Positions 44,759 through 57,773 of a stretch of DNA of 64,000 nucleotides are shown here, one piece after another. The stretch's first letter is position 1. Every line of letters starts with the position of its first letter. The stretch covers positions 496,001-560,000 of the forward strand of contig CAMHMH010000001.1 of the NCBI GenBank assembly GCA_946186205.1, read 5' to 3'. A program made the position numbers and the translations under genes. Origin of the DNA: an uncultured Fretibacterium sp. (GTDB lineage Bacteria; Synergistota; Synergistia; Synergistales; Aminobacteriaceae). The notes beneath the pieces were generated by a model. The model saw only the letters and a list, made by a program, of their open reading frames with translations. It was not told the DNA's origin and did no database searches.

Positions 44759-45502
44759 TTATATTTTGAGTGCCTGCAAAAATACAGGCTCATCACCTTT
44801 TCTGATTTCTGCCATCATAGGAACGACTCCAAGCATGGCCGGGAAAACAGGAAGGTAACGCAAATCTTTCAAGTTGTCCCGGTGATTGTGATACTCATCA
44901 GTGAAGATGTCTATATTTTGTTTCAGTTCCTCAATACCGAGCGTTGAAAGATAATCGAGCTTTGCAGGAACGATATAGTAATCGCTGGCGAGAATTGCAT
45001 TTTTCACCGTAGTGTTGAAAGTCGGCGGGCAGTCTATAAGAACGATGTCATAATCATTCTCAATCTCTTCAAGTGAGTGTGTGAGATAGCTGTGAGTTTT
45101 GAGGAAACTTGCGGAATACATTGTAGAGTTCTGAACGTTGATAAGCCCGGCAAGTTTCACGTCAATGTCTATGAGTCCTAAATGCGAGCTTATGAGGTCA
45201 AGAGTGCCGCTGCTGAAGGTGAGAATATTTCCCGGATTGAGATGTATTACGAGGTCTGAAAGTGAAATTATTTCGTCAGAACCTGTAATGATAGTGTCAA
45301 AATAATTCTTCAGAGTCTTTGAGTCTTTGTACTTGTCCCGCCAGTATTCAGGAGTCATAAAACTGAACGTGAGCTGAGTTTGAGGATCTAAATCTATCAT
45401 CAAGACTCTTTTTCCCTGCGAGGCCGCGTAAGCTCCAAGATTTGACGTGAGAGTCGTTTTTCCGACTCCGCCCTTAATGTTGATGACTGAGACAATCTTC
45501 AT
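44759..45502 (-). CDS. ParA-family ATPase, short form
   Basis: 247 residues. The deviant Walker A INIKGGVGKTT (about 7) and IDLDPQTQLTFSF (Walker A'), and IVLIDCPPTFNTT (Walker B) are typical of ParA/Soj. ATG 45502 has AAGGAG eight bases upstream. The end (KGDEPVFLQALKI) is short for the family, so the last helix may be missing. No ParB or centromere-like repeats were seen. Not in one transcript with the next ParA gene: a terminator and a TGCTATAAT promoter lie between. Confidence 0.85.
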   Translation of the reverse strand: MKIVSVINIKGGVGKTTLTSNLGAYAASQGKRVLMIDLDPQTQLTFSFMTPEYWRDKYKDSKTLKNYFDTIITGSDEIISLSDLVIHLNPGNILTFSSGTLDLISSHLGLIDIDVKLAGLINVQNSTMYSASFLKTHSYLTHSLEEIENDYDIVLIDCPPTFNTTVKNAILASDYYIVPAKLDYLSTLGIEELKQNIDIFTDEYHNHRDNLKDLRYLPVFPAMLGVVPMMAEIRKGDEPVFLQALKI

Positions 45503-45532
45503 GTATGCTTCTCCTTGTGTGTGGATTTTGCG

Positions 45533-45541
45533 ATTATAGCA
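45533..45541 (-). promoter_or_regulatory. Extended -10 promoter of the short ParA gene
   Basis: Minus strand TGCTATAAT, 31 bases before ATG 45502. Confidence 0.65.
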
Positions 45542-45564
45542 TGTGAATTTACCGCTCATTGCGC

Positions 45565-45597
45565 AAAAAAAATCCCCGGCAAATTTTCACCGGGGCA
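45565..45597 (-). terminator. Terminator after the long ParA gene
   Basis: CCCCGG and CCGGGG arms around a ten-base loop, followed on the minus strand by eight T. Confidence 0.9.
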
Positions 45598-45608
45598 TTT
45601 CGTCTCAT

Positions 45609-46922
45609 CTACATATACACTTCAACGGCTCCATTCTCGTCCCATTTCATGACGCACTTCAGAGGCTCTATGATCTGATCGGGGTACATCACCGGCCAGA
45701 ATGTCGGGGACTCATCGTTCAGAACGTAGAAAGTGTACCTGTCTTTGTCCGAGTCCTCGAAATCTTCCCGCAGTGAGTGAACCTCAATTTCTCCCCGCGA
45801 AACGTCATCAATAGGATTGAACAGCTGCGCCCACATTGCTTTCTCTGCATCGGGCAGCATGTCGAGAACGTCATCAATTATCCCCTGCACATATGGTGAT
45901 TTCGGTGTGATTGCTTTCGGCTCATTAATTGGCGGTGAAGGAGGCAGAGTCGGTTCTTCAACATCATCCGGGAGCGTCGGTATGTCGCCGGGATTCGTCT
46001 CTATGGTTTGCTCGCTGATGGAATCATCCGGGGACTCTGTGATTGCTTCCTCATGGACGGTTTCGGGTTCTGGTTCTGGTTCTGGCTCATGGGAAATTTC
46101 TGCGGGTTCAGGCTCTGAGACTTCAACGACGGGAGCAGCAGCAGGAGCAGGAGAAACATTGCCGCCCTCAAAACGCCTCATAAATTCCCGGGCAACTTCC
46201 CTGTAGCACTCCGCGCCTTTTGACTTAGGGTCATACTCGATAACCGACATTCCCATGCTTGACGCTTCATCGATTGTGATGTTCTGCCGTATGTAATTCT
46301 CAAACAGCAAATCACCGAATGACTTCCTCACCTCGTCATGAATCTGCCGCGAAAGATAAAGCCTCGGATTGTAGTTCGTCATCAATATCCCGCAGATCTC
46401 AAGCTCAGGATTAATTTTCTCGTGAAATGTTTTCATGCAGCTGTCGAGAAGCCTCAGACCGTACAAGCTGTAGAAGCCTCCGTCCATAGGAACAATGATT
46501 TTGTTGCACGCCGCAAGAACATTCTGCGTGAAGATTCCGAGCTGCGGAGGACTGTCCAAGAGTATATAGTCGTAACGGTCAGCCTTGATTTTCGCGAGGG
46601 CATCACGAAGAGCCGTAACCTTTTTGATCGGCCCGTCATTATTCAGCTCGGCCATGACGAGATTCAGCGAGCTTGGTACAATGTCGATTCCCTCTTTGCG
46701 CTTGATAACATCATCCCATTCAGCAGCACCCGAAAGAAGATCGAACACTTGCGGATCTGTCTGCGAAACTCTCACACCGAAGCCCGCGCTTAAATTGCTC
46801 TGCGGATCCATATCGACAACGGCAACTTTTTTCCCTTCCTTTTTGAGTGCCGCCGCTATGTTCTGGCATGAGGTAGTTTTGCCGACTCCGCCTTTGAGGT
46901 TGCAGAATCCTATTATCATCAT
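45609..46922 (-). CDS. ParA-family ATPase with Pro/Glu-rich linker and C-terminal domain
   Basis: 437 residues. Residues 1-255 are a full ParA/Soj domain (CNLKGGVGKTT, VDMDPQSNLSAGFG, ILLDSPPQLG). Residues about 256-340 are a flexible Pro/Glu linker with EPEPEPEPE, encoded partly by TTCTGG hexamers. Residues about 345-437 form a further domain (GIIDDVLDMLPDAEKAMWAQLF, YTFYVLNDESPTFWPV) that I cannot assign. It follows the Ig/TPR gene directly (stop 46923, start 46922). The long tail is unusual; it may tether cargo. No ParB partner is present. Confidence 0.85.
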   Translation of the reverse strand: MMIIGFCNLKGGVGKTTSCQNIAAALKKEGKKVAVVDMDPQSNLSAGFGVRVSQTDPQVFDLLSGAAEWDDVIKRKEGIDIVPSSLNLVMAELNNDGPIKKVTALRDALAKIKADRYDYILLDSPPQLGIFTQNVLAACNKIIVPMDGGFYSLYGLRLLDSCMKTFHEKINPELEICGILMTNYNPRLYLSRQIHDEVRKSFGDLLFENYIRQNITIDEASSMGMSVIEYDPKSKGAECYREVAREFMRRFEGGNVSPAPAAAPVVEVSEPEPAEISHEPEPEPEPETVHEEAITESPDDSISEQTIETNPGDIPTLPDDVEEPTLPPSPPINEPKAITPKSPYVQGIIDDVLDMLPDAEKAMWAQLFNPIDDVSRGEIEVHSLREDFEDSDKDRYTFYVLNDESPTFWPVMYPDQIIEPLKCVMKWDENGAVEVYM

Positions 46923-48914: not shown

Positions 48915-48990
48915 GAATCGCTAGCTCAGTCGGTAGAGCACCGGACTTTTAATCCGGGTGTCGCGGGTTCAAGTCCCGCGCGATTCACCA
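48915..48990 (+). tRNA. tRNA-Lys(TTT)
   Basis: Acceptor GAATCGC/GCGATTC, anticodon stem CCGGA/TCCGG with loop CTTTTAA (anticodon TTT), T arm with GGTTCAAGT, encoded CCA. Confidence 0.96.
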
Positions 48991-48998
48991 TTAACACG

Positions 48999-49074
48999 GG
49001 TCCCATCGTCCAGAGGCCCAGGACACAGCCCTTTCAAGGCTGCGACGCGGGTTCGAATCCCGCTGGGACCGCCA
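48999..49074 (+). tRNA. tRNA-Glu(TTC)
   Basis: Acceptor GGTCCCA/TGGGACC, anticodon stem CAGCC/GGCTG with loop CTTTCAA (anticodon TTC), T arm with GGTTCGAAT, encoded CCA. Its 3' end is ten bases from the end of the convergent radical SAM gene. Confidence 0.96.
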
Positions 49075-49083
49075 CACTGTCAT

Positions 49084-50783
49084 TCATTCCCTTTCAAGCA
49101 AATAATACTGTAATACGTCCCTCACTGATTCTGACGCGCTGTTGATCTCGTCCGCTGTGAAAGTGTTGCGCTCAATGATCGTTTTTGCCTCGCGTGAGTC
49201 TGACTCGCTCAATGCACGAAATTTTGACAGCCATTCTTCAGCGAGCGTATGTTTATATTTCTCACGGTAAATTATGAATGTCTCAGGCATGTACAGTATC
49301 TCGTGAAATTCTTGAATGTCATGGCCGAATGCTGCCTCGAAAAATTCAACGCCCCTTCCGATTTTGCCCTTTGTCGAGTTCATTACAGCCTGAACTGCGC
49401 GGATAAATTTTTTGTTCCAGTATGCGCCGATATAGTCCCGGTTTCGGAAATATTGCGGGTCTCTCACAGGATGATACTTCATAGGGAAGGAATATATTTT
49501 CACGTCCAGCTCCTCGCACAAGTCAACGTTGATTCGCATTCGGCAATACAATTCTTCAGGCTTGTCATCAAAATTGTAGAGCAGGTAATTCGACAGGTCA
49601 TCGATTCCGCAGCTTGCCGCAATCCTCACGGCGCGTATGTATATATCCCTCTGGCTGTAATGATCAAATGCGATTCTCAGCGGGCGTATGTTTATCTCGG
49701 CGAGTCGTTTCATGTTCGAGTCGGTTATGAGTCTCGCGTCAATTCCCTGATTGAAGTCAACGTATCTTGAGCGTTTGACCGGGTGAAAGTATTTTGCTCT
49801 CAGCGGCCTGAAGTATGAGGCAGCAGAAAGAATCGATTCGGGCGATGCTGTTTCGGGGTAAATGAGTCCGAGCTTCTCACGCAAATGTAGAACTCTCCCG
49901 CGTCCTTGTCATTCATTCTTGAGGCTGTAAGATCATATATCCCGATAATTTTCCGGACGTAAGCTCTTTGATTGAGTCCGTCACGCAAATTCCCCAATGC
50001 TATTTCGTACTCATCCGGCGGAATGTATGAAGCATTTTTCGCAAACCCGCAGCGTTTAATCTCGTCAATAATTTCGTCAAACATATCTGACGCTAATACG
50101 TTATTGTCCATCAGCAGCAAATCTTTTCTCATCCCGTAATGCTCATCGATATACTTCAGCTGCTCATGAATGCCGCAGAATTTTTTGTACTCAGGCTCAA
50201 GAATAGGGACGGCGCAGAAAGGGCAATGACGAATACAGCCCCTTGTCGTGTAAGCGAAGTATGCGTCATGCGATGGGTAAATATATTCCGTCTCGTCAAG
50301 GATCGAATAGTCCTGAGGGAGCGAGTCTATTATGTCGGTGTTATCGCGGTCAATGACTCCCGGAGTGCTGAGCGTCCCGGTGATGGGTCTGATTTGAGTC
50401 TCGCGGAAAATTTCATCAGGCACGAGAGAAGCTGCGACTCCTCCGACAAGGATTCGGCCATCAGGTTTGAGGAATGATTTTGCGCCGTTGATCGTGTCGA
50501 TCGTTTCGTGCCAGCAGAAAGTGAAAAGAGTCGTGATTGCTATGATGTCGAATTTCGGGTAATCCTGAGTCCTGAATCGTTTGCGGAAATCCTGAATCAG
50601 AAACTCGCTGCTGAAGTTGCAGAAGCCGGGGATATTTTCGATGAGTGAAGATTTCCCGGTCTTTATGTATTCACGGAAGCGGGGGAAAAATTTTGCGAGT
50701 GATTTATCGCCGAGCTGTGAGAAAAATTCTTCGCTGAGTAAATTCAGTGCGAGTTCGCGAAGACTGCCCTTGAAGAATCGCAC
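49084..50783 (-). pseudogene. Cobalamin-binding-type radical SAM protein, split by a frameshift
   Basis: Two overlapping frames make up one protein. The upstream frame (50783 to 49800) has a B12-binding-like region (FDIIAITTLFTFCWHE, ILVGGVAASLVPDEIF) and the cluster motif CIRHCPFC. The downstream frame (49884 to 49084) carries the rest of the barrel: FNQGIDARLITDSNMKRL, RPLRIAFDHYS, LYNFDDKPEELY and SFPMKYHP. The homologous body appears to switch frame close to 49872-49880, so one base is probably missing. Either the gene is newly broken, or this is a sequencing error; recoding is less likely. The ATG 50783 is four bases after the GHKL ATPase gene. Last gene of the NurA-HerA-GHKL-rSAM run. 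Confidence 0.72.
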
Positions 50784-50787
50784 AGTG

Positions 50788-52203
50788 TCATTTGAGTGTG
50801 CTGCGTATTCGTTTGATGAGTCTTTCTGCTGTTACATTGTCAAGTGATGAGCGTATTACGTCAAATATTTTGTTCATGATTGCACGTTCACGCGGGGTAT
50901 ATTTCTGCGTATATGATTCTGTTCCGTAAATTTCAGCCTTGTATGCAAATTTAGTTTCTATTCGGTCAACAATCTTGCGTATGAGTCCTCCTTTTGCCCT
51001 GAGCTTTTCTATGTCTGCTCTTGCTTTGAGTCCTTCGTAAGGGTCATCAGCTTTCTTGAAGAGGTTATATGCCCGAGAGCTGTCGTAATATAATTTTTTG
51101 AGTTCCGTAAAATATTGCTTGATTTGCGACTCCAGTACTGACCATGAAGAATCATTGAAAATGTGTGTACGCTCTAAATTAAGTATACAGTTATCATACA
51201 CACAGAATAATTCACCTATGAAATAGTTTGTTCCTCTGTCTTCTTCAAATAATTTCTGTAACTCATATTCATCTCCAATCTGTATATTGTTCCTCCGCAG
51301 TCTTATTCCTCGCATAAGAGTCCCTTTCTTGATGACTCCCCTGAAGCACGACAGACCGAACCACATCCACGCAATAATATTCCCGTCATCATCGCTAAAA
51401 TCATGGAATGCCACATCAAAAATTTCATCACCGCCGATACTCGTAGAATAATTAAGGCTATACGGCTTGAATATCTGCTCATCGTTCAGGAAAATATCAT
51501 ACTCATCAATACGAAACTTCAGCTTCTCCGCGTGAATGTGAATTTTCTGGCGGAACGGTTCAAAGTTATTGCTGTAGGGAAGAGGAGCAGTGAATGACAA
51601 ATACTCTTTCACAACGGAATAATTAAGCAGCTCTTTGTTGTCGTCTTTGATTCCTTCAAGCTCAACAATAAAATAATGCTCGTCAGCCTCATCTGTTCTT
51701 TTTGTTTTGAACTCGCTGGTCATCATAAACACTTCTGAAGCTGTATACCTGTTGAAACCGCTATCCCTTTCGTCAAAAAGCCGGCGCATTTCTTCAGCAT
51801 CACATTCAAGCGTTGAGATAATATTCTCGCCGCGAAATTTTGCCGTGAACCTCAGAGTCTTACAATACCCAAGACCGCCGAGCCTCCCGATCCCGCGATA
51901 GCCGCGCGAGTCTCCTATCCTCTTGTCCGAGTCTCCTATGCTCATCATCACACGCTCAAAATCTGAAGAGCTTATACCGATCCCGTTGTCCGCAATTGCA
52001 ATCGTCCGCGTATCACTATGAAGCGTTATGTTGATTCTTCCCTCGCCCGGATGAAGTATTTTTTTCCTCACTGCAACGTCTACAGCATCGCAGGAATTTT
52101 GCACGTACTCACGGAATATCATACGCGAATCGCTGTACATTCCTGTTGTGAGACTTTCAAGCAAATGCGAGCCGAAAATTATTTCTTTATCACTCAATCT
52201 CAA
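50788..52203 (-). CDS. GHKL (Hsp90/MutL-type) ATPase
   Basis: 471 residues. The Bergerat ATP site is clear: REYVQNSCDAVD (Glu/Asn, about 30-42), IAIADNGIGISS (DxGxG, about 70) and RGYRGIGRLGGLGYC (glycine lid, about 100). The middle region resembles Hsp90-like proteins of unknown function and the C-terminus is helical and basic. It starts seven bases after the HerA gene. Such ATPases act as molecular clamps; in this operon it may gate or load the HerA-NurA machine (inference). Confidence 0.88.
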   Translation of the reverse strand: MRLSDKEIIFGSHLLESLTTGMYSDSRMIFREYVQNSCDAVDVAVRKKILHPGEGRINITLHSDTRTIAIADNGIGISSSDFERVMMSIGDSDKRIGDSRGYRGIGRLGGLGYCKTLRFTAKFRGENIISTLECDAEEMRRLFDERDSGFNRYTASEVFMMTSEFKTKRTDEADEHYFIVELEGIKDDNKELLNYSVVKEYLSFTAPLPYSNNFEPFRQKIHIHAEKLKFRIDEYDIFLNDEQIFKPYSLNYSTSIGGDEIFDVAFHDFSDDDGNIIAWMWFGLSCFRGVIKKGTLMRGIRLRRNNIQIGDEYELQKLFEEDRGTNYFIGELFCVYDNCILNLERTHIFNDSSWSVLESQIKQYFTELKKLYYDSSRAYNLFKKADDPYEGLKARADIEKLRAKGGLIRKIVDRIETKFAYKAEIYGTESYTQKYTPRERAIMNKIFDVIRSSLDNVTAERLIKRIRSTLK

Positions 52204-52210
52204 TCACTCC

Positions 52211-53872
52211 TTAATCATTAAACTGTTTGTATGCAGGGCGCGGAAAATTCACCTTCAGCAATGAACGGAACAAAGGACTCTGCAGCAAATATTCTCCCTG
52301 TTCGAGACGCAATAAAATGTTCCTGTAAGTTTCGGGAATGTGGCTGTAATCTTTTCCGGCTGACTCGATCGCGTTTGTCCTTCCGTAAGCATGAACAGCG
52401 CAGTTCCCCGTAACACGCGCGTTTATTCCGCTCCTGAACTGCTCCGCTCCGAACATTATCACACCTAATGACCTTCCGCGCTCCGTAACGTCAAGAATCT
52501 CACGCAGAACAGGCGAGCTTTTCGGCGCATCTTTCGAGGCGTATTTGTTAAGCTCGTCAATGAACACTATGATTCTTGAGGGGGGATTCACTCCTTCATA
52601 TTCTCCGAGTTTCAGACGGTATATAGCTCTCAGTGCGTCGCCGAATACAAACGCTTGCTTGTCCTCTGAGAGTTTCGCGATGTCTATCACTTTCACGTCG
52701 CCCGGCTTGATGTTCTTCATCTCATCTGCGAGTCTGCATTCATGATTTTCACTCACTGCCCTTTGCGCGAACATGTCATCATTCTTCACGGACTTGTTGA
52801 GAATGCGCTTGAACTTCCGCCAGCTTTGCACCGTAATTTCTCCTGCTGATGATGATTTGCCCTGCGACTTTTGCGAGAACGTATGCACCTTTTCGATGAG
52901 CTGAGTCCACGTCATGACCTGCTTATTTCCGAAATCAGAGTCAGAGTCATCAATTATCTTTGTGATTATCGACTCCATCGTCTGCAAAGGGTCATCAATG
53001 TCAGCAAACAGCATCTCCAGACTCTCGCGGTCATGCTCGTAGCAGTATTTGTACTTCATGAGTCTTCCGGCTTGTATATATTCGTCAATGTCATCCTGTG
53101 CTATGTATGTGCTTCTTCCTGAATGCGAGTAAGGGATGTAGTATTTCACGTTCCTGAATGGTGCCGCGCTCAGTCCCAAATCTTTGTAGCGTTTCCGTTC
53201 CGACTCACTGAGTCCGCCGGGAATATGAATCGCTGTAAGGTCTCTTCCCTTCACGTTGAAGATAACGAATGCTGTAGAGTCGTCCTTCATGGCCGCGTAA
53301 TATTCCTGAATCGATTTCAGCAGGAACATAGCGTATGACGTTTTAGCCGCAAGACCTGAGATTCCCGAAATATTCAGGTGCGCTCCTTCAGGGCCTAAGA
53401 GAAATTTTGCGTTCATCTTCACGGGCAGCGTAACTTCGTCGGGCGTTCCCTCGTACATTCTCAGAGATCCGCAGACAATGGGATTCTGAACTTCAGCGAG
53501 TCCCAATGCGTATATTATTTCGTCAGGCGATGCAAGATAGACGGGCGAGTCATTCCTCACAGGGGTATAAATATTTTTCGTGTTGAATGCTACGGAGGCT
53601 TCAGCGTAATTCATTCCGACTCGTAAAGTTGGTGACTCGATCTCAGTGTCTCCGAAATCATTTGAGATATAGCCGGAAAGAAAGCTCTGCGCGTCCGTAA
53701 TGTGTGAAATATTTCTGACAGTGCCGAAAGTAAACGAGCCGTCAATATGTTCAGCCTTCACGATGTCGAATGCACCGAGCCGGAAATCTGAGTCAGTCCA
53801 GAACGTAAATTTGTCCATTGTCGTCGGGTATTTCTCTGTCGCTGAGACTCTGCCGATGATTTTATCCCGCAA
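52211..53872 (-). CDS. HerA-type ATPase (DUF87 family)
   Basis: 553 residues. An N-terminal beta-rich HAS-barrel-like part (about 1-110) is followed by a RecA-like motor. The P-loop is the variant SGISGLAAKTSY (about 183), lacking the usual GKS/T but keeping Lys-Thr; Walker B is RIIVFIDELNKYA (about 432); the Arg-finger region is near TERGRSLGVIMFGAEQFRSG. HerA hexamers pump DNA and feed it to NurA. Located 18 bases after the NurA-like gene. Confidence 0.85.
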   Translation of the reverse strand: MRDKIIGRVSATEKYPTTMDKFTFWTDSDFRLGAFDIVKAEHIDGSFTFGTVRNISHITDAQSFLSGYISNDFGDTEIESPTLRVGMNYAEASVAFNTKNIYTPVRNDSPVYLASPDEIIYALGLAEVQNPIVCGSLRMYEGTPDEVTLPVKMNAKFLLGPEGAHLNISGISGLAAKTSYAMFLLKSIQEYYAAMKDDSTAFVIFNVKGRDLTAIHIPGGLSESERKRYKDLGLSAAPFRNVKYYIPYSHSGRSTYIAQDDIDEYIQAGRLMKYKYCYEHDRESLEMLFADIDDPLQTMESIITKIIDDSDSDFGNKQVMTWTQLIEKVHTFSQKSQGKSSSAGEITVQSWRKFKRILNKSVKNDDMFAQRAVSENHECRLADEMKNIKPGDVKVIDIAKLSEDKQAFVFGDALRAIYRLKLGEYEGVNPPSRIIVFIDELNKYASKDAPKSSPVLREILDVTERGRSLGVIMFGAEQFRSGINARVTGNCAVHAYGRTNAIESAGKDYSHIPETYRNILLRLEQGEYLLQSPLFRSLLKVNFPRPAYKQFND

Positions 53873-53890
53873 TTATATTCACTCCCATTT

Positions 53891-55000
53891 TCAGAACAGA
53901 TGCAGGAAACTTTCTGCGCTGATGTATTTTGACTGTATATATTTCTCCGTCAAGTAAACCGGGTAAATGTGGCTCATCCATCTTGAGTCATTTCCGTAAC
54001 AGACCGGGGTTCGTTCATTGATTATGTATGCGCTGAGTGTGTCAATTTCTGTGCTGTCGATTCTCTGGTTGTCGCGTTCGGATTGGGTAGTAAGAATCTT
54101 TTCGGCCTTGATGATTCCGCTGAAGACTGACTGAGACTCTGCTCTTTCACGCAGCCTTATGTACCACACAGCAAAGAGGGCATCACCGAAAATTTCCGGC
54201 CTGCTGTAAATCACCGCGTGTGTTCTGTGATACGCAGGAAGAGCGGCTATATATTCGGGGTCAATTTTTCCGTAACGGTTTGCGCATGACTGAGGATTGA
54301 AAGTTTTCGACAGGCCGACAACCCATCTGTAATTAGCGGGCGGCAATTGTGATTTCTTTCTGTACTCTAATGATCCGTCCTTGATGAGATAATTTCTGTA
54401 GTTCAGTTTCTTGATGAGCGACTCTGTGATTTCCTTCTCATTCTGAATCATTCTGTCTTGTATTGCGGCTGTAGCTTTGTCCTCGTAGGTCTCAGAATTT
54501 TTTGACGCTGAATAAGTTATGACCGCTGAAATTTCGAGTCCTCTGCGAATCATTTCGGGAGTCCCTGAAAGTTTGCTTGCCATTGCGGGGAAAAATCCGG
54601 GCTTGCCGTCTGGGTCAGAAATATCCGGGACTGCTATAACGATTTCGCGCCGTGAGATTTCGGGGATTAGTTTTCGGCTGACTCTCCTGCAAGCACCTGC
54701 TGAGATCTGCCCGGCGATTATGGGATAAATTGTATTGTTGTAGGAAATTTCCCCGGCCTTGAAGACTCGCCTTGAGCCGTCAAGAAAGTATGTCAGAATC
54801 GATTCGCCTGATGATAATTGCCTGCTCCTCTGCTGAAGGTCAATATATTTTTCCGTGTGTGATGACTCTGCTGAATGCCCGAAAAATGACGGTGATATTT
54901 CTTCCTCGTGAGGCTGTGAATCATCGAGGCAAAATTTTCCCGCCCCGAAATTTTTCCCGAACGTCTCAAGCGCAATAATATCGGTCAGTTTCTCGTGCAT
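53891..55000 (-). CDS. NurA-like nuclease
   Basis: 369 residues with NurA-type landmarks: YFLDGSRRVFK (motif I Asp, about 88), LIKDGSLEYRK (second Asp, about 206), VVGLSKTF (Lys) and a late HIYPVYLTEKYIQ (His). It is the usual partner of HerA in archaeal and bacterial DNA end processing. It is first in the operon, with an extended -10 promoter at 55036-55044. Identification is by motif order; overall similarity is low, so I keep moderate confidence. Confidence 0.72.
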   Translation of the reverse strand: MHEKLTDIIALETFGKNFGAGKFCLDDSQPHEEEISPSFFGHSAESSHTEKYIDLQQRSRQLSSGESILTYFLDGSRRVFKAGEISYNNTIYPIIAGQISAGACRRVSRKLIPEISRREIVIAVPDISDPDGKPGFFPAMASKLSGTPEMIRRGLEISAVITYSASKNSETYEDKATAAIQDRMIQNEKEITESLIKKLNYRNYLIKDGSLEYRKKSQLPPANYRWVVGLSKTFNPQSCANRYGKIDPEYIAALPAYHRTHAVIYSRPEIFGDALFAVWYIRLRERAESQSVFSGIIKAEKILTTQSERDNQRIDSTEIDTLSAYIINERTPVCYGNDSRWMSHIYPVYLTEKYIQSKYISAESFLHLF

Positions 55001-55035
55001 GTATGAATTTCTGCTTTCTTGTGGAATTTGAGCGG

Positions 55036-55044
55036 ATTATAGCA
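55036..55044 (-). promoter_or_regulatory. Extended -10 promoter of the NurA-HerA-GHKL-rSAM operon
   Basis: Minus strand TGCTATAAT, 36 bases before the NurA-like ATG. Confidence 0.65.
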
Positions 55045-55125: not shown

Positions 55126-57738
55126 TTAGATGAATGAGAATACGAGATTGCCTGACTTCACGTTAACGTTTACGATTGTTTTCTCCTTGATGCCTCCGCC
55201 GATCATAGCGCGAGCAAGTTTCGTCTCTACGTTGTGCGTAATGTATCTCTTCAGCGGCCTAGCTCCGTAAACAGGATCATACCCGGCCTCCGCAATGAAT
55301 GATATTGCCTCGTCCGAAAATTTCAGCTCTATCTGCCTGTCCGCGAGTCTCTCCTGCAAATGCGCGATGAGAATCTTCACGATCTCTTTCACCTCGGCCA
55401 TGCTAAGAGGCTTGAACAGTACAATATCATCAACGCGGTTCAGGAACTCAGGCCGGAAATGTTCCCTCAATGACTGCATGACTTCAGCGCGTGCGTTCGG
55501 TGTGATTGCTCCGTCATTAATGCCATCGATAAGACTCTGTGATCCTATATTGCTCGTCATGATTATCACGGTGTTCTTGAAGTCAACAACATGGCCGTGC
55601 GAGTCCGTTATTCTCCCGTCATCAAGTACCTGTAACAATATGTTGAAGACATCCGGGTGAGCCTTCTCAATCTCATCAAACAATATCACGCTGTAAGGCC
55701 GTCTTCTTACTGCTTCCGTTAGTTGTCCGCCCTCGTCAAAGCCTATATAGCCGGGAGGAGCTCCGACGAGTCTTGAGACTGAATGCTTCTCCATATACTC
55801 GCTCATATCGATTCGTATCATGTTGTCTTCTGAGTCGAATAATGCCTCCGCTAATGTCCTTGCAAGTTCCGTTTTTCCGACTCCAGTCGGCCCCAAGAAT
55901 ATGAATGATCCTATAGGGCGTTTAGGGTCTTTGATACCGCTTCTTGCTCTCAACACCGCGTCAGCTACGAGACTCACGGCTTCGTCCTGGCCTATTACGC
56001 GCTTGTGAAGTATCTCGTCAAGTTTCAGGAGTTTTTCGCGCTCGCCTTCAAGGAGTCTTGTTACGGGGATTCCTGTCCACCTGCTTACGATGTCTGCAAT
56101 TTCATCATCTGTCACTTCTACACGCAATAGCTTGTTGTCGTCCGAGCCTTTGAGAATGTCAGAGCGTTTTGCTTCCTGGCCTGCTAAGACTCTCTGCAGC
56201 CTCGGCAATTCACTGTTCTGTAACTCAGCTGCTAATTCCCAGTTGCCGTTGCGCTGTGCCTCATCAATCTTTGCTTTTGTCTCTTCTATCTGCCTTCTGA
56301 AGCTCTGTATGTCAGCAATTGCTTTCTTCTCGTTCTCGTATTGAGTCCTGAGAGTATTTTCTTCCGACTCGGCCTCTTGCAGTTCCTTCTGCAAAACTTT
56401 CAGGCGTTCCTTGCTTGCGTCATCCTCTTCATGCTTGAGTGAGACTTCCTCAATCTTGAGCTGCATAACTTTTCGTGCTGCCGCGTCAAGCTCTGAGGGC
56501 TGGGAGTCAATCTCCGTGCGAATCATCGCGCAGGCCTCATCAACGAGATCTATTGCTTTGTCGGGCAAGAAACGATTCGTTATGTACCTGTTCGACAATA
56601 CAGCAGCCGCTACAAGTGCGTTGTCCCGAATCACAACACCGTGATGCACCTGCAATTTCTCACGAATGCCCCTGAGAATCGATATTGTGTCCTCTACTGA
56701 AGGCTGCTCAACGTCAACGGGCTGAAACCTTCTCGCTAATGCCGCGTCTTTCTCGATATACTTTCGGTATTCGTCAGTCGTTGTTGCTCCGATGCAGTGA
56801 AGCTCCCCTCGTGCCAGCATGGGCTTCAGCATATTCCCCGCGTCAACAGCACCTTCAGCGGCACCGGCTCCGACGATCGTATGAAGCTCATCAATGAAGA
56901 GTATTATTCTTCCGTCGCTGCTCTTTATCTCATTGAGGACGGCCTTCAGTCTCTCTTCAAATTCTCCGCGATACTTTGCGCCAGCGATTAACGATCCCAT
57001 ATCGAGCGCAAATACTGTGCGTTCTTTGAGTCCTTCAGGAACATCACCGCGAACGATTCTCTGCGCGAGTCCTTCAACGATTGCTGTCTTGCCTACACCG
57101 GGATCACCGATTAGCACCGGGTTGTTCTTTGTCTTCCGTGAAAGGATTCGAATCACCCGGCGTATTTCGTCGTCGCGTCCTATTACGGGGTCAAGTTTGT
57201 TGTTCTTTGCTGCCTGAACCAAATCGCGCCCGTACTTTTCGAGAGCTTCATACGTTGCTTCAGGGTCTGCGCTCTGGACTCTCTGTGAACCTCTCACAGC
57301 GTTTAATGTCTTGAGGAAGTTTTCTTCATTGAGTCCGAAACGTGAGAAGATTTTTCCGCACGGCGTGTTGTTTCCTTCAGAGAGCATGGCAAGCAATAAA
57401 TGTTCAACGGAAATATATTCATCCTTGAGTGCTTTTGCTCTTTCGTCAGCGCGTGTCAAAAGCCTGTCGAGCCTCTGAGTGAGATAAATTTTTCCCTGCT
57501 CGACTCCTGAGCCTGTAACGCGGGGAAGTTTTGAGAGTTCATCTTCTGCTGCTTTCAAGATTTCGCCGGGGTCAGCATTCATTTTGCGGAGTATCTGCGG
57601 TATCAATCCTTCAGAGTCACGGAGCAATGCGCACAGCAAATGCTCACAGTCCGCCTGCTGATGATTGTATTCTGAAGCTATTGCCTGTGAGGCGGCTAAT
57701 GCTTCCTGACTCTTTCGTGTAAGTTTGTTAATGTCCAT
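55126..57738 (-). CDS. clpB: ATP-dependent disaggregase ClpB
   Basis: 870 residues. N-terminal Clp repeat domain (1-145), first AAA module with [13 protein letters not shown], a coiled-coil M domain (about 405-530), and the second AAA module with [12 protein letters not shown] and [23 protein letters not shown]-type pore/GYVG sequence. It works with DnaK/DnaJ to resolve aggregates. ATG 57738 is preferred over GTG 57750, which would abut its SD. A sigma-70 promoter (TTGCAA-N16-TATAAT) precedes; no CIRCE element is seen. Confidence 0.96.
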
Positions 57739-57773
57739 ACGAGAAATCACACCCCTTTAACCAAGTCTGACGA

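Follow-up and report, generated by a model that had tools for sequence, protein, structure and literature searches.

A NurA-HerA-GHKL-radical SAM gene cassette with a probable defence function and a damaged radical SAM gene in an uncultured Fretibacterium

What could a NurA-family nuclease, a HerA-type motor, an Hsp90-like GHKL ATPase and a radical SAM protein do together in one operon? We addressed this question for a cassette on the minus strand (49084-55044) of a 64,000-nt stretch of an uncultured Fretibacterium genome (G000); the whole stretch is hereafter called the window. With moderate confidence, comparison with related loci leads us to read the locus as a mobile anti-phage (anti-mobile-DNA) defence cassette, which is present here in a probably disabled or altered form.

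Conservation and spread of the cassette

GTDB contigs were scanned with a radical SAM alignment, which returned 245 relatives, and the best 80 were fetched. Among the 61 loci with at least 5.2 kb of upstream sequence, 56 encoded NurA, HerA, GHKL and radical SAM proteins in exactly this order on one strand, as anticipated by the initial annotation, which had treated the four families as one system. The GHKL and radical SAM genes overlapped by 4 nt in 22 of 50 loci. Over 50 loci, the distance matrices of the four proteins were correlated with pairwise r of 0.80-0.88, compared with a permutation maximum of 0.19; that is, the four proteins co-evolve.

According to the record titles, the hosts belonged to Synergistota, Bacillota (including Lachnospiraceae, Oscillospiraceae, Selenomonadaceae, Desulfosporosinus and Syntrophomonadaceae), Planctomycetota, Chloroflexota, Chlorobiota and Cloacimonadota, together with a Methanomicrobiales archaeon. 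The phyla were interleaved in the HerA tree, in which the starred branches force repeated changes. HerA was detected in 11 of the 83 genomes of the window's family, confined to 2 of its 20 genera, and in 5 of 61 genomes of a set of Desulfosporosinus relatives. NurA was present as one copy per genome in 25 genomes. The cassette is patchy and horizontally spread, and it does not show the broad conservation of a housekeeping repair role.

Defence genes and prophages around the cassette

At E<=1e-8, the 122 proteins encoded beside the cassettes matched 268 PADLOC models, and at the stricter E<=1e-30 they matched 61. A control set of 115 proteins, encoded far from the cassettes on the same contigs, matched 10 and 3 models at these thresholds. 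Models rather than proteins were counted here, and one protein may be matched by several models of the AbiE or type IV kind. The neighbouring defence families in PADLOC included type IV restriction enzymes, AbiE, AbiL, Pbe, AriA, HEC and PDC, and the Pfam neighbours included GmrSD, SLFN/AlbA_2 and AAA/OLD-like proteins. The cassette is co-located with known defence genes above background. Patchy presence near defence genes had been named in the initial annotation as a finding that would support its reading, and it was borne out by the distribution within the family and by the neighbours at loci elsewhere.

Five IMG/VR contigs carried the cassette HerA, and four of them contained the full cassette in order; in two of the full cassettes, HerA was merely 39-42% identical to that of the window. 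In L206, the cassette lies behind LmuB (Lamassu; E 1e-232) and before PDC-S06 (a candidate defence gene; E 3e-195), and it adjoins phage Gp2.5-like and exonuclease (recombination) genes. An integrase gene follows the radical SAM gene directly in L208, after a short gene in L209 and further downstream in L207. In the sequenced temperate phage Marinitoga camini virus 1 (L127, KP836355, 33.5-42.9 kb), genes for HerA, NurA and a radical SAM homologue of 360 aa adjoin those of the resolvase and the regulator. The cassette HerA was found in 2 of 50,697 phage records, both of which also contained NurA and the radical SAM protein. Separately, in a prophage-like contig (L210, 3349-12125), divergent NurA-HerA genes stand between those of a type IIG restriction enzyme and a type II methyltransferase, possibly as a restriction variant of NurA-HerA without GHKL or radical SAM.

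Components of the window cassette

The window cassette consists of the following features.

55036..55044, minus strand: extended -10 promoter element TGCTATAAT, ahead of nurA
53891..55000, minus strand: nurA, predicted divergent NurA-family nuclease, 369 aa, intact (family fold model and motifs)
52211..53872, minus strand: herA, predicted Deinococcus-type HerA translocase, 553 aa, intact (matches to 7f6d_B, invariant columns and motifs)
50788..52203, minus strand: predicted GHKL (Hsp90-like) ATPase, 471 aa, intact (Pfam HATPase_c_3 and motifs)
49800..50783, minus strand: predicted radical SAM pseudogene, 5' portion (alignment with L013, L014 and L015; PHROG 9298, E 1e-14)
49084..49884, minus strand: predicted radical SAM pseudogene, 3' portion in a shifted frame (alignment; PHROG 9298, E 3e-15)

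The four same-strand coding regions are separated by gaps of 18, 7 and 4 nt. The strand and the gaps are thus as given in the initial annotation, but its fourth gene consists of two frames. The extended -10 promoter that it had placed ahead of the operon was found, and this element is kept before the cassette of a related genome (G037) and before the solo radical SAM gene of another (G062). An exact match to TGCTATAATCCG occurs once in the window, compared with 0.01 expected. No shift in GC content was observed at the cassette of the window.

The cassette NurA gave no Pfam match, the Pfam NurA model included. An AlphaFold model of the family built from 43 sequences showed a pLDDT of 89.3 and was used in place of an earlier model from 9 sequences, which was unusable (pLDDT 48). 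The top two Foldseek matches of this model in the PDB were Deinococcus NurA (7f6d_G, E 1.6e-11) and Sulfolobus NurA (2ygk_A, E 6e-8), in agreement with the original description of a NurA-like nuclease. As judged from the predicted structure, the cassette nuclease is a NurA with an RNaseH-like fold. The window protein contains the NurA motifs FLDGSR (D74) and KDGSLE.

HerA matched Deinococcus radiodurans HerA (drHerA, 7f6d_B) with E 8e-37 as a single sequence and 5.5e-48 as a profile. Residues K177/T178, D211 and D439/E440 are invariant in the family, and the Walker A Lys/Thr and Walker B Asp/Glu align to drHerA. For drHerA, the Walker A lysine is reported to contact the beta-phosphate and to be required for ATPase activity; nucleotide and metal are reportedly bound by this lysine together with the Walker B pair, residues on which both ATPase activity and resection depend (PMC9960219). 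The assignment as a HerA-type motor with intact motifs therefore stands. However, the P-loop, which had been regarded as a variant, is of a form normal for bacterial HerA: GISGLAAKTS in the window has the same GISGxAxKTS form as GISGVATKTS of D. radiodurans.

The third protein matched Pfam HATPase_c_3 (E 6e-11), consistent with its earlier classification as an Hsp90-like GHKL ATPase, and contains the N-box REYVQN, the G1 motif DNGIGI and the G2 motif GIGRLGG. Its similarity to HtpG is confined to the ATPase domain. Between the window and G037, NurA was 74%, HerA 83% and the radical SAM protein approximately 80% identical, but GHKL was only 49-52% identical, and synonymous change was saturated in GHKL only. 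Against the closest cassette, the window GHKL gene (50788-52203) and its counterpart in L013 (1954-3468) showed 49% identity, compared with 74-83% for the neighbouring genes. Between two other relatives (G029 and G052), all three compared proteins were 83-86% identical. The GHKL gene alone was apparently swapped in one lineage, which would fit a recognition component under diversifying pressure. Weak GHKL matches in nearly all other genomes of the genus were considered as extra copies of the cassette and rejected, as they are HtpG-like proteins of approximately 620 aa.

The clpB/tRNA site in related genomes

The cassette is bounded by the following features.

48915..48990, plus strand: tRNA-Lys(ttt), conserved landmark of the cassette site (ARAGORN)
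48999..49074, plus strand: tRNA-Glu(ttc), conserved landmark at the edge of the cassette site (ARAGORN)
55126..57750, minus strand: clpB, opposite flank of the cassette site

The 3' end of the cassette is 9 nt from the end of tRNA-Glu, so that the tRNA gene lies hard against it, as had been noted. Comparison of the tRNA-Glu to clpB interval among relatives, which the initial annotation had proposed, revealed full, partial and empty versions of one site. G037 and G026 contain four intact genes at the clpB/tRNA-Glu/tRNA-Lys site. In G052, the radical SAM gene is disrupted and the other cassette genes are kept; G027 has intact NurA, HerA and GHKL genes without radical SAM, and in G029 the radical SAM gene is missing and herA contains a stop. 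Two genomes retain little else than radical SAM: in G062, it is the only cassette gene and stands right behind the cassette's own leader and promoter, and in G060 it is preceded by a scrap of the GHKL 3' end. This leader and promoter and this scrap mark both loci as scars of a full cassette. The site is empty in G048, where approximately 80 bp separate clpB from tRNA-Glu, and is occupied by unrelated genes in G047 and G040.

Use of tRNA-Glu as an integration (attachment, att) site, another early proposal, did not hold up. No second copy of the tRNA-Glu 3' end was found in the window, the clpB side included, and the cassette contains no integrase. tRNA-Glu is a landmark, and a role as an att site is not supported.

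Two further observations concern this site. Six related genomes have a P-loop ATPase gene (MFRKAERRKAKLRLAITGPAGSGKTYGALLIAQGL...) next to the cassette/tRNA-Lys site (L014, 13714-14625; L019, L020, L021, L024 and L026). In the window, two adjoining ParA/MinD-type ATPase genes (44759-46922) are located beyond the tRNA pair; the C-terminal region of the second is long, acidic and rich in proline.

Damage to the radical SAM gene

PHROG 9298 matched both halves of the radical SAM gene in the window. The CxxxCxxC iron-sulphur motif was present in 35 of 35 members of the family and is also kept in the 5' fragment of the window, indicating that the assignment to radical SAM proteins was correct. By contrast, the proposed cobalamin type was not supported: the cobalamin motif DxHxxG was present in 0 of the 35 members, and the Pfam B12-binding model remained far under its threshold (E 0.06-0.25).

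Intact relatives encode the protein in one frame of approximately 600 codons, which starts within or beside the end of the GHKL gene. Aligned with these relatives, the window gene lacks approximately 104 nt at the GHKL junction, with which the start codon and the first ~34 conserved codons are gone. In addition, a one-nucleotide frameshift near 49893 divides the gene, and the 5' portion is in its native frame only to approximately this position. Because of this 5' loss and the frameshift, the radical SAM gene of the window is, on alignment, a pseudogene, and the cassette copy is not complete as had been assumed. No second radical SAM copy was found in G000. An assembly error could account for the frameshift, but hardly for the 104-nt deletion. 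The remaining sequence still bears the mark of constraint, with a ratio of nonsynonymous to synonymous change (dN/dS) of 0.10-0.14 against G037; the damage is therefore recent.

That the cassette of G000 is a decaying relic without current function, which would be compatible with a defence role elsewhere, is a tentative alternative that we take seriously without preferring it. The two lesions in the radical SAM gene point in this direction, as do the related genomes with partial loss, stops or an empty site. However, nurA, herA and the GHKL gene of the window are intact, retain all motifs and show low dN/dS (0.10-0.16) against G037, and G027 is in the same three-gene state.

Proposed mechanism and alternative explanations

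The defence role, the radical SAM step and a licensing function of GHKL are inferred, and the parts would most probably act together as follows. NurA and HerA would assemble into a ring motor bearing a NurA dimer; like the pair of Deinococcus and archaea, it would thread double-stranded DNA that is linear or broken and degrade it. In the cassette, this pair would serve as a destructive effector restrained by the GHKL ATPase, and not for routine end resection. GHKL may be an ATP-driven clamp or switch that closes once it recognises invading DNA or an intermediate of replication. On the recognition or activation side, the radical SAM protein would act together with GHKL; it may modify GHKL or the effector, or make a mark or signal for GHKL to read. 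A role as activator or signal maker would explain the harmless loss of either half.

Several observations weigh against a defence cassette of this kind, in addition to the counting of neighbours by models. In the window's own genus, the cassette occupies the clpB/tRNA site and not a defence island. In other settings, HerA-NurA works in repair. Four genomes (G000, G027, G029 and G052) retain the other genes although their radical SAM gene is broken or absent, and radical SAM is thus not strictly needed for the retention of the rest. Finally, many loci are metagenome bins in which mis-binning is possible; L092 and L094, for example, carry two phylum names but do not differ.

A DNA-repair operon, in which HerA-NurA resects double-strand breaks, GHKL acts like MutL/Hsp90 and the radical SAM protein repairs a lesion, is an unlikely explanation. 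In its favour, sequence and fold show the Deinococcus resection pair to be homologous to HerA and NurA of the cassette, there is a single copy per genome in the 25 genomes in which NurA was counted, and radical SAM enzymes able to repair DNA exist (spore photoproduct lyase). However, a repair operon fits poorly with the patchy, horizontal spread, the prophage copies beside integrases and other defence genes and the strong PADLOC enrichment among neighbours, and close relatives have lost the cassette without replacement.

A restriction-modification-like system, in which the radical SAM protein marks host DNA protectively and NurA-HerA-GHKL destroys unmarked DNA, is if anything more doubtful. 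It would suit the radical SAM genes beside DndB-like DGQHR and ParB-N on plasmids, which hint at DNA modification. In G062 and G060, too, the solo radical SAM gene resembles an orphan modification gene. Nevertheless, nurA-herA-GHKL is kept without radical SAM in G027 and with a broken one in G000 and G052, where unprotected host DNA should be attacked; across G000, G027, G029 and G052, the nuclease is not tied to an intact modification enzyme. No sequence-recognition subunit was identified. The initial annotation had suggested a system that recognises or modifies DNA and then cuts it. A division of labour in which GHKL and radical SAM recognise and HerA-NurA destroys is indirectly supported by the recurrence of GHKL-radical SAM with other DNA-acting partners, but radical SAM as a protective modifier in a simple modify-and-cut scheme is disfavoured because G027 and G000 keep intact nurA-herA-GHKL genes without an intact radical SAM gene.

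It is very improbable that the cassette serves a phage or another mobile element, in recombination, end processing or superinfection takeover, and was only sometimes captured by chromosomes. Full cassettes do lie beside integrases in prophage-like contigs, and HerA and NurA occur with a radical SAM homologue in Marinitoga camini virus 1, but the HerA is rare in sequenced phages and mainly chromosomal, and the accessory spot beside Lamassu and PDC-S06 suits cargo over core replication.

Relation to known systems

Among the closest described systems is HerA-NurA of D. radiodurans (7f6d; PMC9960219), which shares a homologous motor, the GISGxAxKTS P-loop, the DELN Walker B and the closest nuclease fold match. 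It differs in that the cassette is tied to GHKL and radical SAM, mobile, patchy and found in defence-rich surroundings; moreover, the cassette NurA is only ~14% identical to D. radiodurans NurA in the structural alignment and too divergent for Pfam. A HerA ATPase-nuclease complex acts in defence (PMC11291478), and HerA-type ATPases are discussed in PMC10853773. As in these systems, a HerA-type ATPase is joined in the cassette to a nuclease or effector, in an anti-phage context, but the effector is NurA and the partners are GHKL and radical SAM. HerA-coupled immune effectors are already known (PMC11291478, PMC10853773), and a radical SAM-GHKL core would be the newer element.

TmtA (Tiamat) and other GHKL-bearing defence proteins resemble the cassette in the GHKL ATPase domain only (E 1e-6); TmtA is a single protein with a profile of ~1,400-1,800 aa, whereas the cassette GHKL has 470-530 aa and is part of a four-gene operon. 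Viperin-type proteins (pVips) are antiviral radical SAM enzymes. An antiviral role is likewise proposed for the radical SAM enzyme of the cassette, but this protein belongs to PHROG 9298, has ~600 aa and is nearly always in an operon with GHKL or a DNA motor, and it is not a stand-alone modified-nucleotide synthase as pVips are.

PADLOC 2023 contained no system model for the cassette and gave weak partial matches to mad8 and TmtA; divergent copies matched none. No literature joining HerA-NurA with GHKL or radical SAM was found, subscription journals and preprints being outside the search, and an earlier name is possible. If the defence reading is true, a widespread bacterial and archaeal system was missed by the defence catalogue searched, and a DNA-resection machine was recruited for immunity under an Hsp90-like switch. 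Radical SAM chemistry, in immunity mainly the domain of viperins, would then enter a DNA-targeting system.

The radical SAM-GHKL pair with other partners

Radical SAM and GHKL matches also share records of alphaproteobacterial plasmids. GHKL was found in 12 plasmid records and radical SAM in 14, two of which are from Bacteroides; no NurA was found in plasmids. The neighbours of the pair on plasmids were DGQHR (Pfam DndB, E 1e-9), ParB-N, SNF2 and PIN-like genes and, at times, a second GHKL. Against viral contigs, the main-family radical SAM profile gave no matches and a divergent profile (A13) matched 408 stretches. Among the best 23 of the A13 matches (L213-L235), GHKL was adjacent in 13, HerA-NurA was present in two and ParB-N/SNF2-like genes in others. 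The weaker A13 matches mostly have no GHKL nearby and resemble ordinary phage radical SAM proteins. Radical SAM genes of Bacteroides and methanogen viruses, with no GHKL or HerA annotated alongside, were rejected as members of the system. In L069, an HNH-like gene (weak Pfam match) occupies the GHKL position.

This recurrence with other DNA-acting partners suggests that the pair is a recognition or licensing core with exchangeable effectors. We tentatively propose that GHKL-radical SAM may be the general core of an undescribed anti-phage family, in which radical chemistry would generate or read an invasion mark and the GHKL clamp would activate a neighbouring effector (HerA-NurA, SNF2/ParB/DGQHR, PIN or HNH). 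If so, this would be the first defence class built on radical SAM-GHKL signalling, and the exchangeable partners make what the pair senses directly testable.

One conserved arrangement is found on plasmids (L123-L125) and viral contigs (L217, L218 and L223): ParB-N, a small gene, an SNF2 helicase, DGQHR (DndB-like) or ParB-like, radical SAM and GHKL. It has the same adjacent radical SAM and GHKL families as the cassette, but DGQHR, ParB-N, SNF2 or PIN-like genes replace HerA-NurA, and it is apparently undescribed too. From its gene content, this module resembles a second system of the defence type, with the radical SAM-GHKL core in common. L123 and L124 additionally contain a PIN-like and GHKL pair.

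Other variants were observed singly. In several Clostridia, a second divergent GHKL gene lies downstream of radical SAM (L091, 11915-14143; L099, L100 and L102, near 12.7-14.2 kb); in L091, it comes after a 254-aa protein without a known Pfam family. L048 (6667-11833) has GHKL-radical SAM without HerA-NurA, apparently amid arginine-biosynthesis genes as judged by eye, near a RecT-family gene. Prophage-like radical SAM-GHKL pairs are present in L224 (6365-11487) and L225, and the pair in L224 is preceded by a 543-aa protein of unassigned family, possibly another type of partner.

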